Shown here one piece after another: positions 15,648-20,801 of a stretch of 37,343 nucleotides of DNA. The notes beneath the pieces are model-generated. The model was not told where the DNA came from, did not search any database, and saw nothing but the letters and a program-made list of their open reading frames with translations. This stretch comes from an uncultured Candidatus Poseidoniales archaeon. Lineage in GTDB: Archaea > Thermoplasmatota > Poseidoniia > Poseidoniales > Thalassarchaeaceae. Each line of letters starts with the position of its first letter. The first letter of the stretch is position 1. The stretch spans positions 1 through 37,343 of the forward strand of contig CACGIM010000009.1 in the NCBI GenBank assembly GCA_902573115.1, written 5' to 3'. The translations under genes and the position numbers were made by a program.

Positions 15648-16082
15648 TTAGCAACAGCCTTGTTCCCTCATCGGGGCACTCACAAAAGATACCTTGTCGA
15701 CATGAGGGGTATTCTGTAAACCTTCGATTACTGAACGCAAATTACCTGCTGATCCCTTGACCTGGAGGAGGTCAACACACGCGTGACTGTGCTTGAAGCT
15801 ACTGTGGCTGTAGGTTGAAACTTCAATGACGTCGGAGTGACGAAGGTCCACTAGCAGCCTCTGTCCATTCGCATGATCGTGCTGGTAGTGCACTACCAGG
15901 TGCCCCTCAATTATGGTCTTCTCTTCCATATCCTCTAAATCGCCCCTCTGCTGGATTTCAGCGAAGAAAAGAGACGCGTCACGTATGAAGCGGCTTCTGT
16001 TCTTGTATCCCGACTTCTTGATTAGGCTTTCAAAATCTCTTGCAAACTCCCTGTCCGCACTAAAAGAGATAATCTGACTCAT
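15648..16082 (-). CDS. NikR-like ribbon-helix-helix metalloregulator
   Basis: RHH N-terminus (ISFSADREFARDFESLIKKSGYKNRSRFIRDA) plus NikR-C/ACT-like His-rich domain (VEVSTYSHSSFKHSHACVDLLQVKG region). Divergent from znuA-like gene. Confidence 0.8.
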   Translation of the reverse strand: MSQIISFSADREFARDFESLIKKSGYKNRSRFIRDASLFFAEIQQRGDLEDMEEKTIIEGHLVVHYQHDHANGQRLLVDLRHSDVIEVSTYSHSSFKHSHACVDLLQVKGSAGNLRSVIEGLQNTPHVDKVSFVSAPMREQGCC

Positions 16083-16172: not shown

Positions 16173-18857
16173 ATGAATATGCGAAGCACTGCTATTATGA
16201 CGGTCCTGATGATGCTATTTTCAAGCATGGCAGGATGCCTAGATAGAACAGAAGAAGAAGAACCAACTGCCATGGTTTCAACATATCACGTTGGCCAGTT
16301 GGTGTCCGCTATAGCCGGAGACACGATGAACGTGGAAATGATGTCCACAACAAATATCCCTGTTCACGACTACGAGCCATCCGCGGCAGATCTTGTAAGG
16401 CTGCAGGAAAGTGACATTTTCTTCTACCATGGGTTGAACCTTGAACCATGGGTGGAGTCGGCTCTTTCTTCCCTCGGAGATAATGCTCCAAAATCGGTCC
16501 AGACTCATGCAATGCCCTCAGGAGAAATTGAGTTGGACTATGAATCGATGCTTGTATCTGACCTTTGCGAGCTACTAGCTGATGGTCCGTACGAGAGCAC
16601 TACACTCGGTCACGAGGATCATGAGGGCCATGAGGATCACGCCAATGAGACCGAGGAGAACCACTCAGAGGAAGATGGTCACGAGGGTCACAACCATGCC
16701 GAAGCAGAAGAAACCATTCAGAATCCTGAGGGATGTCCAGCGGACACAGTGATCTCGATTTTCCACATGGAGGCTGGAGAGCATGTTTTGGAGTTTGAGG
16801 GGCATCACGACGAGACCTTCAATATGGCCGTTCTCAAGATGCCTGGCGGGCATGCCCACCACCATGACCACGGGCACGCAGGTCCATTCGAGTGGGCGGG
16901 AGTCTTCGAGATTGCCGACTCTTCCCACACTTGGACAATGCAGAAGGTCGACGGGGCCTACGCAGACCCGAGCATGCGCTTGGTGCTTATCCCGACCGAC
17001 GCGGCTACCGAAGAGGCCATGGAGGCTGCTGAGGAGGGTGTTGGCGAAATGATCGAGGGAGACTCTTGCACTGTTATCGAGGATGGGGAGACCATGACCC
17101 CGATTGCCGCAGAAGGCTCATGCTTCGAGCTACACGTGGGAGTCGGTGACGACTCGACCTTCACGATCGACACAACGGGAGTTTCTGCCCTGGCAGCCTA
17201 CGCCCAGCACGTTCCAACAGAATTCGAGCGTGACACCCACTACCTGGCAGACTCGGCAGGAAACGACATCGAGCCTGTCGCGCAAGAGGGTGCGGAAGGG
17301 CATGGGCATGAAGACCATGGTGAAGAGGACGAACATCATCACATGGTTTGTCACAACACAGCGACCCATCAAAACTATGACGCTACTGAGTCTGAATGTG
17401 AAGCTGCAGGCCACACATGGATGGAAGGAGGCGACGAGGGGGGAGTTTGTCATAACACAACGACCCATCAAAACTATGACGCTACTGAGTCTGAATGTGA
17501 AGCTGCAGGACATTCATGGATAGAGGGAGATCACCATGACTACCCGGAGATAGAAGCAGACTATGTTTCTCACAGTCTTTCTTTCCCTGAGGAAAAGGTC
17601 TGCTACGACATGAGTACCCACACGGTAAACGGCTCGATATCGAGTCAGTCAGAATGTGAAACTGCTGGACTAATGTGGACTGAGTCCACATCTGGAGGAA
17701 ACCACACTGATGAAGAAGGTGAGCACGAGGCTGGCTACGTCGTGGTTCACATAGAAGAGGAGGGGGACTATGGATTCGCAGTACCACTGGATGTCGAGTT
17801 CTACATACTGGCGGAAGAGACAGGTCCATTCGAGTGGGCGGGAGTCTTCGAGATTGCCGACTCTTCCCACACTTGGACAATGCAGAAGGTCGACGGGGCC
17901 TACGCAGACCCGAGCATGCGCTTGGTGCTTATCCCGACCGACGCGGCTACCGAAGAGGCCATGGAGGCTGCTGAGGAGGGTGTTGGCGAAATGATCGAGG
18001 GAGACTCTTGCACTGTTATCGAGGATGGGGAGACCATGACCCCGATTGCCGCAGAAGGCTCATGCTTCGAGCTACACGTGGGAGTCGGTGACGACTCGAC
18101 CTTCACGATCGACACAACGGGAGTTTCTGCCCTGGCAGCCTACGCCCAGCACGTTCCAACAGAATTCGAGCGTGACACCCACTACCTGGCAGACTCGGCA
18201 GGAAACGACATCGAGCCTGTCGCGCAAGAGTCTGTTGGTGGCCACGATCACGATCATGGAGGGCATGGTGAAGAGGGCGAAATAGAGGCAGGTGAGGATG
18301 AAGAGGCATTCAACTACGACCCGCATAGCTGGCTAGACCCAGTGTCTTTCAAGGAGCAGGCAAAGGTCGTACTGGAGGCTTTGAAGGAGGCTTTTCCCAG
18401 CGATGAGTCGGCATTCACGGCGAACGCTGAGGCCTATATGTCCCAGCTAGACTCTCTGCATGCGGATTTCCAGACCACGCTACCTAGCGATTCATCATGT
18501 ACCGAAAACAAGGTAATAGCCAACCACAACGCATACAGCTACCTTGCCAAGCGGTATGATCTAAAGTTCATATCAATACATGGTCTTGATCCAGAGGGCG
18601 AGCCATCGGCTGCAGATATTGCAGAGGCTGTGGAAGAAATCAATGAAGAGGGGATTACTGTCCTTTTCATTGAGGAGTACACATCCGAGTCAGCCGTCGA
18701 CAGCATAGTGGAGCAGACTATTTCAGACACAATGCCAAATGGCGTCGGAGTTGAGTACCTATACACGATGGAGATGGAGCCAAAGGACACAAGCGACGAT
18801 TACATTTCCATGATGAGAAAAAGCATGAACAGCCTCAAAGAAGGTCTCGGCTGCTAA
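16173..18857 (+). CDS. znuA: Zinc-type ABC transporter substrate-binding lipoprotein (ZnuA family) with giant His/Cys-rich insertion
   Basis: Lipobox-like SSMAGC; cluster A-I motifs VHDYEPSAADL, FFYHGLNLEPW, YDPHSWLDPV, NHNAYSYLAKRYDLKFISIHGL, IEEYTSESAVDSIV. A roughly 600-aa insertion separates the N-terminal lobe from DPHSWLDP. Confidence 0.9.
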   Translation: MNMRSTAIMTVLMMLFSSMAGCLDRTEEEEPTAMVSTYHVGQLVSAIAGDTMNVEMMSTTNIPVHDYEPSAADLVRLQESDIFFYHGLNLEPWVESALSSLGDNAPKSVQTHAMPSGEIELDYESMLVSDLCELLADGPYESTTLGHEDHEGHEDHANETEENHSEEDGHEGHNHAEAEETIQNPEGCPADTVISIFHMEAGEHVLEFEGHHDETFNMAVLKMPGGHAHHHDHGHAGPFEWAGVFEIADSSHTWTMQKVDGAYADPSMRLVLIPTDAATEEAMEAAEEGVGEMIEGDSCTVIEDGETMTPIAAEGSCFELHVGVGDDSTFTIDTTGVSALAAYAQHVPTEFERDTHYLADSAGNDIEPVAQEGAEGHGHEDHGEEDEHHHMVCHNTATHQNYDATESECEAAGHTWMEGGDEGGVCHNTTTHQNYDATESECEAAGHSWIEGDHHDYPEIEADYVSHSLSFPEEKVCYDMSTHTVNGSISSQSECETAGLMWTESTSGGNHTDEEGEHEAGYVVVHIEEEGDYGFAVPLDVEFYILAEETGPFEWAGVFEIADSSHTWTMQKVDGAYADPSMRLVLIPTDAATEEAMEAAEEGVGEMIEGDSCTVIEDGETMTPIAAEGSCFELHVGVGDDSTFTIDTTGVSALAAYAQHVPTEFERDTHYLADSAGNDIEPVAQESVGGHDHDHGGHGEEGEIEAGEDEEAFNYDPHSWLDPVSFKEQAKVVLEALKEAFPSDESAFTANAEAYMSQLDSLHADFQTTLPSDSSCTENKVIANHNAYSYLAKRYDLKFISIHGLDPEGEPSAADIAEAVEEINEEGITVLFIEEYTSESAVDSIVEQTISDTMPNGVGVEYLYTMEMEPKDTSDDYISMMRKSMNSLKEGLGC
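16879..17288 (+). repeat. 410-bp direct repeat, copy 1 (inside the znuA-like CDS)
   Basis: caggtccattcgagtgggcggg...gagcctgtcgcgcaagag; identical by eye to 17821-18230, offset 942 bp (314 codons, in frame). Confidence 0.95.
17346..17429 (+). repeat. Cys-module repeat unit 1 (VCHNTATHQNYDATESECEAAGHTWMEG)
   Basis: Near-identical to 17445-17528; a diverged third unit lies near 17598-17688. Confidence 0.85.
17445..17528 (+). repeat. Cys-module repeat unit 2 (VCHNTTTHQNYDATESECEAAGHSWIEG)
   Basis: 99-bp offset from unit 1 with few substitutions. Confidence 0.85.
17821..18230 (+). repeat. 410-bp direct repeat, copy 2
   Basis: Same sequence as 16879-17288; flanks differ (g/a before, g/t after). 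Confidence 0.95.
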
Positions 18858-19034: not shown

Positions 19035-19886
19035 ATGCCAGACCAGGATACTTGGAACATATTCTCGAAGATAAAAGGTAATTTGGCCAATATTAATCAA
19101 AACAATATAATTGAGAGTATACTCAAACTAAGGCAACTTTCGGTCACTAGGTCCGGAGTGAAAGTGGTGGAGAAAGTATCTTTCGATATAACAAAAGGTG
19201 AGTTCGTTGGCCTTGTGGGCCCTAACGGAGGCGGAAAGACCACCCTTTTGCTAACGATACTAGGCGTACTAAAACCATCCAGCGGGAGTCTCCTTGTCTA
19301 CGGACACAAACCTGCAAGTAGCCAAAACCTAGGAAAGGTTGCATGGGTCCCGCAGACCGGGGCAAACATTCCAAGGCATATTCACATAACAGTAAGAGAA
19401 CTGATTAGATTAGGAACGATCAATAGGAGCAACTTCTTTTTCAGAACTGGCAAATCTGGGACCGGGAGAGTCAATAAAGCCATAGAAATGGTTGGATTAG
19501 AGGATTTTGCCGATGTTGACGTTTTGAGACTATCTGGAGGACAGTTACAACGGGCTGTGATTGGAAGAGCACTTGCATCGGAATCGGATTTCATAGTCCT
19601 GGATGAGCCCCTCGTTGGAGTGGATAGGGCTGCAAAGAACTCGATACTAAGACTTCTAGATGACCTTTGTCACGACCATGGCAAGACTATTCTCATGGTT
19701 TCCCACGACTTGGCTGCTATTTCCCAGACAGCGCACAGGATAATCTACTTGGAGGGGGAGGTGCAGTTTGATGGCCCATCGAGCAAAATACCCGATCTAA
19801 ATGAGTTAGCAAGCATAAGGGGCATTCAGAACCCCCATGCAATGAAGAGTCGTCGAACACCAATTGTCCACATAAAGAGGGAATGA
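19035..19886 (+). CDS. znuC: Zinc-type ABC transporter ATP-binding protein
   Basis: Walker A GPNGGGKTT, signature LSGGQLQRAVIGRAL, Walker B FIVLDEP, H-loop MVSHDL; ZnuC-like SSGSLLVYGHKP, VAWVPQ. Confidence 0.93.
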   Translation: MPDQDTWNIFSKIKGNLANINQNNIIESILKLRQLSVTRSGVKVVEKVSFDITKGEFVGLVGPNGGGKTTLLLTILGVLKPSSGSLLVYGHKPASSQNLGKVAWVPQTGANIPRHIHITVRELIRLGTINRSNFFFRTGKSGTGRVNKAIEMVGLEDFADVDVLRLSGGQLQRAVIGRALASESDFIVLDEPLVGVDRAAKNSILRLLDDLCHDHGKTILMVSHDLAAISQTAHRIIYLEGEVQFDGPSSKIPDLNELASIRGIQNPHAMKSRRTPIVHIKRE

Positions 19887-20440
19887 GCATGGGAATTGGG
19901 AATTCGGTGATGAGTGCTCTGGGGCCAGTCTTGGAATTTATCGCCCCTGTAGTCCCAGGTGAGATTTTTCCTCATTTCTTTAGCGGAATTTTCCAGAATG
20001 CATTAGTTGCCTCAGTGATTGTGACCATTGTGGCTGGCATTTTGGGGTCATTTTTGATGATGAGGAACCTTTCGTTAATTGGTGACGGTCTGGCTCACGT
20101 TTCTTTTGGAGGAATTTGCGTGGGAATTGTCGTGGGCTCCACCTCCCCCCTGATTTATGCGCTTATTTTCAGCGTTTTGGCAGCGGTGTTGATTTTCGAA
20201 ATGCAGAGCAGAGAAATTCTGACCGGGGATGCCTCGATTGCAATCTTCCTGACGGGGATGCTAGCATTCGGACTAGTTGTCCTTAGACTGTGGGGGGGGC
20301 GGAGTAACCATGGATGTAGAAGGATATCTCTTTGGAAACCTATTACTAATGGACGAACAAAGTTTGGACATAATTATCTATATCAGCATATTTGCGTTAT
20401 TTTCCATCGCACTTCTTTACAATGGACTGCTTGCAACTAG
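19883..20440 (+). CDS. znuB: Zinc-type ABC transporter permease, N-terminal part (frame-interrupted)
   Basis: NALVASVIVTIVAGILGSFLMMRNLSLIGDGLAHVSFGGICVGI is ZnuB-like; homology stops at a G8 tract (20292-20299), after which this frame is non-homologous. Confidence 0.85.
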   Translation: MSMGIGNSVMSALGPVLEFIAPVVPGEIFPHFFSGIFQNALVASVIVTIVAGILGSFLMMRNLSLIGDGLAHVSFGGICVGIVVGSTSPLIYALIFSVLAAVLIFEMQSREILTGDASIAIFLTGMLAFGLVVLRLWGGRSNHGCRRISLWKPITNGRTKFGHNYLYQHICVIFHRTSLQWTACN

Positions 20441-20801
20441 CATAGATCCCATCGCGGCTCAAGTACAAGGAATACCTGCGCGCGGCATAGGATTGTTATT
20501 CAGTGTAATTACCGCAGCTGTTGTAGTAACGATGGTAAAAATCATTGGTGCTTTGTTGGTGACTGCTCTTCTTGTCACTCCAGCTGCCACGGCCCAGCAA
20601 ATAGGCAATAGTTTCAGGTCTTGCTTGATTTGGACACAGGTGTTCGGTCACACATCAGTATTATTCGGTCTGTACCTTTCCTCCGAGATTTCGACAGGAA
20701 GTGGTTCTATGATCGCAGTTGTGGCGGCGACCATGTTTGGGGTCGTTGGGGCATACCAAAACATAGTATTGCCATTGCTTAATCCAGATAGCAACCAATA
20801 A
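20277..20801 (+). CDS. znuB: Zinc-type ABC transporter permease, C-terminal part (shifted frame)
   Basis: VEGYLFGNLLLMDEQ...IDPIAAQVQGIPARGIGLLFSVITAAVVVTMVKIIGALLVTALLVTPAATAQQI is the ZnuB C-terminal half. Confidence 0.85.
   Translation: MSLDCGGGGVTMDVEGYLFGNLLLMDEQSLDIIIYISIFALFSIALLYNGLLATSIDPIAAQVQGIPARGIGLLFSVITAAVVVTMVKIIGALLVTALLVTPAATAQQIGNSFRSCLIWTQVFGHTSVLFGLYLSSEISTGSGSMIAVVAATMFGVVGAYQNIVLPLLNPDSNQ

Follow-up and report, generated by a model that had tools for sequence, protein, structure and literature searches.

A ZnuA-type receptor of Candidatus Poseidoniales with a large modular insert in its histidine-rich loop

The stretch of DNA analyzed here (37,343 nucleotides, hereafter the window) contains a znuA-like gene whose product carries a very large His/Cys-rich part in its middle. 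This raises the question of what this part is made of and what it may contribute to metal uptake. According to the interpretation we favor, with a probability of about 60%, the protein is the receptor of a ZnuABC-type metal importer, in which a large modular arm outside the cytoplasm takes the place of the His-loop and would capture metal and hand it over.

Receptor frame and operon

The Pfam profile PF01297 (ZnuA) matched the 894-aa protein with 189.8 bits (gathering cut-off 29, E 8.5e-56) in two stretches, one upstream (profile positions 3-83) and one downstream (71-263) of the insert. The original prediction of an open reading frame with ZnuA ends and a large His/Cys-rich middle was exact in this respect. 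The residues H65, H718, H785 and E835, which we take to be the metal ligands from established ZnuA/AdcAII structures, are present and invariant (21 and 24 aligned homologues), as is the lipobox residue Cys22. Judged by its sequence, the product is a membrane-anchored lipoprotein with ZnuA at both ends. The insert (aa 121-712) comprises 592 residues, among them 49 His, 12 Cys, 141 Asp+Glu and 8 Lys+Arg. It had been placed between the two lobes; a large insertion is indeed present, but it sits in the His-rich loop, immediately N-terminal to the DPHSW ligand and beside the metal site, and not at a lobe junction. In solved structures, the His-rich loop of ZnuA lies at the same place.

Fold, lipobox, ligand positions, the ATPase/permease operon and the His-rich loop site are shared with ZnuA and other cluster A-I substrate-binding proteins (PF01297; AdcAII, E. 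coli ZnuA). What separates the protein from an ordinary ZnuA is the length of the loop (~592 aa compared to a few tens) and the presence of folded domains foreign to ZnuA. A fold search with the full-length model revealed ZnuA-type proteins only, among the matches listed. The AztC equivalog NF040870 gave 138.9 bits, which is below its curated cut-off of 350, and the receptor is therefore called AztC-like only. A ZinT domain, a trait of AdcA, was absent among the Pfam matches of the 894-aa protein to E 1; likewise, there was no Pfam match to the histidine-triad (Pht) family or to EF-hands, and none to NF038134 / TIGR03769 (choice-of-anchor M / HxD-HxH zinc proteins).

The gene forms an operon with an ABC ATPase and a permease, as is characteristic of cluster A-I substrate-binding proteins, and this downstream pair is conserved in most relatives. 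In the window, the permease is split into two open reading frames (19883-20440 and 20277-20801), while it is a single intact one in the relatives examined. The frameshift is likely a sequencing error, the alternative being a real inactivation. The divergent regulator remained below the NikR cut-offs (TIGR02793, 28.8 versus 175 bits; best match PRK04460, 47 versus 105) and by its sequence can be called NikR-like only. By eye, it has a conserved H..HSHxCVD region with a His/Cys spacing unlike the H-x-H-x5-C of NikR; it is possibly a zinc-sensing relative of NikR.

Table 1. Features of the znuA-like locus and their positions in the window
Feature	Position	Strand	Basis
NikR-like regulator, divergent, conserved beside znuA in most relatives	15648..16082	-	profile matches, neighborhoods
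znuA-like gene, whole ORF with stop, 894 aa	16173..18857	+	ORF list, translation, Pfam
Signal peptide and lipobox (LFSSMAGC, Cys22)	16173..16238	+	sequence; A20, G21, C22 invariant in 21 homologues
ZnuA fold, N-terminal part with ligand His65 (VHDYEPS)	16263..16532	+	Pfam ZnuA positions 3-83; H65 invariant
His/Glu run 1 (HEDHEGHEDHANETEENHSEEDGHEGHNHAE), begin of expanded loop	16611..16703	+	sequence; low pLDDT
coreN, aa 188-225, putative N-half of split EWAG-like beta domain	16734..16847	+	pattern, hhalign, AF2 of orthologue fragment
His run 2 (HAHHHDHGHA)	16851..16880	+	sequence
Direct DNA repeat (410 nt, copies 100% identical, spacing 942), copy 1	16879..17288	+	DNA comparison
EWAG domain copy 1, aa 237-372	16881..17288	+	homologue comparison, model
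Cys module 1, aa 393-418	17349..17426	+	sequence, homologue patterns
Cys module 2 (aa 426-451; DNA 92% identical to that of module 1)	17448..17525	+	sequence, homologue patterns
Cys module 3, aa 477-501	17601..17675	+	sequence, homologue patterns
coreC, aa 521-546, putative C-half of split EWAG-like domain	17733..17810	+	pattern, hhalign, AF2
Direct DNA repeat copy 2	17821..18230	+	DNA comparison
Second copy of EWAG domain, aa 551-686, same sequence as copy 1	17823..18230	+	sequence comparison
His/Glu run 3 (GGHDHDHGGHGEEGEIEAGEDEEAFNY)	18234..18308	+	sequence
ZnuA fold, C-terminal part; ligands His718 (DPHSW), His785 (NHNAY), Glu835	18309..18857	+	Pfam ZnuA 71-263; residues invariant
ABC transporter ATPase (best NCBIfam match AztA)	19035..19886	+	NCBIfam
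ABC permease (AztB/ZnuB-like), frameshifted in G run ~20292-20299	19883..20801	+	NCBIfam, relatives

Composition of the insert

From its N-terminal end, the insert consists of a His/Glu run (aa 147-177), coreN, a His run, the first EWAG domain, three Cys modules (393-501), coreC, the second EWAG domain and a last His/Glu run. The larger module predicted to be present twice corresponds to the two EWAG copies, which are 100% identical over 410 nt, and the three predicted Cys modules were located as well (Table 1). The two core pieces constitute a further conserved element that had not been listed.

EWAG is the name given here to the domain of ~136 aa present in two copies in this protein. It has no family match in Pfam or NCBIfam, only chance-level matches in the PDB by sequence (E 0.034) and no resembling solved structure in a fold comparison with the PDB (best E 0.43); no viral spread and no viral structural match were found. 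Thus, it is a domain named by no profile library used here. A paper describing it or these interrupted receptors was not found in the literature searched. As to the database search proposed for the insert, the domain is new to Pfam, NCBIfam and the PDB; relatives of it occur in other lineages. AF2, run with a 45-row alignment, predicted a beta-rich fold with one helix (pLDDT 93-98). In all of 47 EWAG sequences compared, E240, W241, G243, D265, M268, P348, E350 and F351 are unchanged; H346 is present in 46. These conserved residues, among them E240, D265, H346 and E350, may serve as metal ligands.

The core pieces showed a relationship to the same domain. By hhalign, coreN was matched to residues 8-33 of haloarchaeal EWAG, at the beginning of the domain; its score of 24.7 exceeded those of all 60 column shuffles, which reached 15.7 at most. 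CoreC aligned at the matching place (residues 89-99 of haloarchaeal EWAG), its score alone not being above the shuffles, and the joined core gave no score with a Poseidoniales-weighted EWAG alignment. In an orthologue that has only Cys modules between the halves, both of them were modeled confidently by AF2 (about 85-90), and the core strand starts (17, 27, 44 and 175, 186, 196) mirror the strand spacing of EWAG (218, 228, 244 and 292, 303, 315). It is likely from these models that coreN and coreC are the halves of a split, degenerate EWAG-like domain. Since the pieces flanking the first EWAG look like halves of one domain, the insertion appears to be nested.

Distribution within and outside the order

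A ZnuA profile search of 194 genomes of Ca. Poseidoniales detected the protein in 119, throughout as half-profile matches among the matches listed. As an uninterrupted ZnuA would score best and head the list, and none was among the matches listed, the genomes searched seem to possess none. Every detected Poseidoniales ZnuA among these matches is interrupted at the His-loop, so that the rarity of the insert implied by the original prediction was wrong. According to the original prediction, homologues that routinely carry the insert with an assigned function would refute it. Half of this applies: an insert is routine among the ZnuA detected in the order, while the literature searched assigns it no function. 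The znu system itself is patchy, ZnuA being missing from 75 of the 194 genomes, including 16 of 34 high-quality ones.

Elements were counted in a sample of 21 complete relatives, whose lengths range from 524 to 1146 aa and which differ greatly in length and content even if closely related. A pattern search found coreN in 20, coreC in 16 and EWAG in 11 of them; Pfam identified EF-hands in 12 and PRKCSH-like matches in two. About half of the homologues do not have EWAG, which is accordingly inessential to the receptor itself; these proteins have EF-hands instead. The Poseidoniales inserts are mosaics of EWAG, Cys modules, EF-hands and His/Asp/Glu linkers, and the reading frame is intact across all complete copies. 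The shortest homologue (L055, 524 aa) has coreN, coreC and little besides, whereas in the single-EWAG proteins L052-L054 coreN is present and coreC was not detected, the core being either dispensable or broken there. A binning artefact is unlikely because the loci L068, L069 and L094 stem from isolates with single-cell-style names. Large non-ZnuA proteins of the same order (L066, L067) also contain a similar Cys module (CYDxxxH...ECEAAGxxW) and EF-hand-like stretches, which suggests from sequence that surface modules may be drawn from a shared pool. By eye, some inserts (L041, L039, L035, L042) have an LDLa-like (CGDGSDE) or a DUF4430-like (SWYWxLxxWN) stretch, neither of which was named by Pfam.

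In a sample of 293 genomes of the phylum, EWAG was confined to Poseidoniales, apart from one genome outside the order that matched the Marine Group III locus L102. Beyond the phylum, haloarchaeal ZnuA has one EWAG in the same His-loop, in some records with a gene for a GTP-binding protein in the neighborhood. Halosolutus, Halomontanus and Natrinema possess standalone small EWAG lipoproteins with His tails, and the Natrinema gene (L113) clusters with ureG, ureD, ureE and ureF, which may point to nickel. Two metagenome-assembled genomes (MAGs) labeled Gammaproteobacteria or Proteobacteria have EWAG at the corresponding loop of a ZnuA that is otherwise very different: the domain is 69% identical to that of the window, the C-terminal part of ZnuA 25%. 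In L096 (Verrucomicrobiales) and L080, EWAG adjoins choice-of-anchor M repeats, and both have an NF038134/TIGR03769-type match; L096 lies near a cobW (CobW/COG0523) gene, L080 near a ZnuA gene. HxD and HxH pairs as described for ZnuE/F/G of C. diphtheriae (PMC12445094) were seen by eye in L080. The contig of L080 (PATZ01000030.1) is titled Euryarchaeota, its EWAG surface protein resembles the verrucomicrobial L096, and it was probably mis-binned in a public MAG. Finally, a membrane protein on an Alicyclobacillus (Bacillota) plasmid (L126:3770-4681) has EWAG in a His-rich loop together with an HSILPDH motif, in a gene cluster that also encodes cation transporters and metal regulators. By eye, an HX4DH motif suggested a nickel/cobalt permease, but Pfam matched nothing, also after removal of the insert, and this identity is not claimed.

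Thus, EWAG is nearly always found beside metal genes, be it in haloarchaea, proteobacteria, Verrucomicrobia or Bacillota. In the EWAG tree, four bacterial copies form one clade (99/92) within the Poseidoniales copies, with L077 as sister (97/89), while the haloarchaeal copies attach via a long branch. The nesting of bacterial in archaeal copies and the divergent identities of EWAG (69%) and ZnuA frame (25%) demonstrate that the domain moves; the tree points to a transfer from Poseidoniales archaea to bacteria. It is conceivable, as a tentative model that we hold at somewhat less than even odds, that EWAG is a mobile metal-handling domain, plugged as a built-in metallochaperone into exposed His-rich loops of unrelated archaeal and bacterial metal-uptake proteins, and that in Poseidoniales it was inserted into itself (the split core), extended by exchangeable modules and kept uniform by gene conversion.

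Possible function of the insert

Several observations argue for an arm that captures metal. The ZnuA fold with its invariant ligands adjoins an ATPase and a permease, the insert begins at the His-loop by the metal site, and EWAG sits in metal-linked contexts across distant lineages. Besides the degenerate split EWAG-type beta domain, the proposed arm comprises two complete EWAG domains, the three Cys modules and flexible His/Glu-rich linkers. On the outer side of the membrane, Zn2+ (or a similar divalent metal) would be bound by its linkers and domains and thereby concentrated close to the receptor. From the arm, the ion might then reach the cleft (His65, His718, His785, Glu835) by direct handover, and the cleft would pass it to the permease. 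Zinc is the likely metal, as the family matches are AztA/B/C; nickel is possible, since the regulator is NikR-like and EWAG occurs beside urease genes. The earlier idea that the insert feeds the transporter as a zinc sponge or buffer is plausible and has support from its context: the transporter operon, the metal-linked EWAG neighbors in four other lineages and precedents such as the transfer from PhtD to AdcAII. The term sponge undersells the insert, in which the models show, besides the His runs, domains of confidently predicted fold, and in these some residues are invariant (E-W-x-G, D-P-x-M, H-x-P-x-E-F).

The perfect identity of 410 nt within one contig, with a second likely error nearby (the permease frameshift in a G run), could mean that the second copy is an assembly artefact of a metagenome-assembled genome. 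However, when independent assemblies were inspected for absence of the insert, the two-copy architecture was present in L074/G014, L070 and L071, which speaks against a private assembly error. The copies of G014 have the same order and are diverged (73%, gapped), while those of L070 (478 nt) and L071 (481 nt) are as perfectly identical as in the window, at other spacings; L070 is located on a 533-kb contig whose isolate is labeled PACB, suggesting long reads. An artefact is therefore highly improbable and was discarded as the main account of the duplicate; the pattern is better explained by recurrent gene conversion or re-duplication. Recombination between copies is also indicated by G017. Its only copy resembles copy 1 of G002 over the initial 180 nt (89-95%) and copy 2 over the final 180-240 nt (93-95%), which a crossover deleting the segment between the copies would produce, although it may be an assembly collapse in that MAG. 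Such recombination, identical copies in three species and the variable length and content among close relatives (524-1146 aa) would also suit a loop that expanded by unequal crossing-over between repeats and is tolerated with little selected function. This is very unlikely, since every complete copy has an intact frame, the matches listed for the order include no uninterrupted ZnuA, and EWAG combines a high-confidence AF2 fold with residues that are invariant across archaea and bacteria.

Alternatively, the insert might serve adhesion or scaffolding, the EF-hands, Cys modules and acidic linkers binding Ca2+ and attaching the receptor to the envelope or to particles, with metal richness being secondary. 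The EF-hands and PRKCSH-like matches of the homologues, the Cys modules shared with large non-ZnuA proteins of the same genomes and the very acidic composition are in line with this. On the other hand, the protein of the window (P0001) has no EF-hand match, the insert invariably occupies the His-loop next to the metal cleft, and even in distant lineages EWAG is still tied to metal uptake, which makes this explanation rather unlikely. That the receptor handles nickel (or another metal) instead of zinc, the insert being a nickel chaperone arm under a NikR-like regulator, would agree with the divergently adjacent NikR-like gene in most relatives and the EWAG lipoprotein beside ureDEFG. It nevertheless appears quite unlikely, as the best family matches of receptor, ATPase and permease include the zinc systems AztC, AztA and AztB, the regulators do not have the exact ligand spacing of NikR by eye, and other EWAG neighbors are of zinc type (ZnuA, COG0523).

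The capture arm favored here has counterparts among bacterial zinc systems. PhtD hands zinc to AdcAII, as shown by NMR (PMC3842936), and zinc is reported to pass from AztD to AztC (PMC6689063). C. diphtheriae has the zinc-binding proteins ZnuE/F/G with HxD and HxH pairs (PMC12445094), and the two-domain PEP-CTERM protein ZepA, reported to be absent from archaea, assists a zinc importer (PMC10957091). All of these are extracytoplasmic zinc-binding helpers of a zinc importer, but they are separate polypeptides and unrelated to the insert by the family searches run. Streptococcal AdcA is a zinc receptor (ZnuA) fused to ZinT (PMC7858048), and resembles the protein described here in joining a receptor to an accessory metal-capture domain (here predicted). 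By contrast, its ZinT is a C-terminal fusion of a different family, for which no match was found here. A further likeness is provided by haloarchaeal ZnuA (for example Halorubrum ezzemoulense WP_094519641.1, annotated only as metal ABC transporter substrate-binding protein) with EWAG in the same His-loop, although it has one copy, about 32% identical, and no split core, Cys modules or EF-hands.

The Poseidoniales belong to the most abundant archaeal groups of sunlit seawater, in which little dissolved zinc is available. If the arm captures metal, it would offer a built-in alternative to bacterial chaperones that are known as separate proteins (ZinT, AztD, PhtD) and would give a role to EWAG, an unnamed domain of several lineages, for which haloarchaea with their one-domain version would be a testable model.
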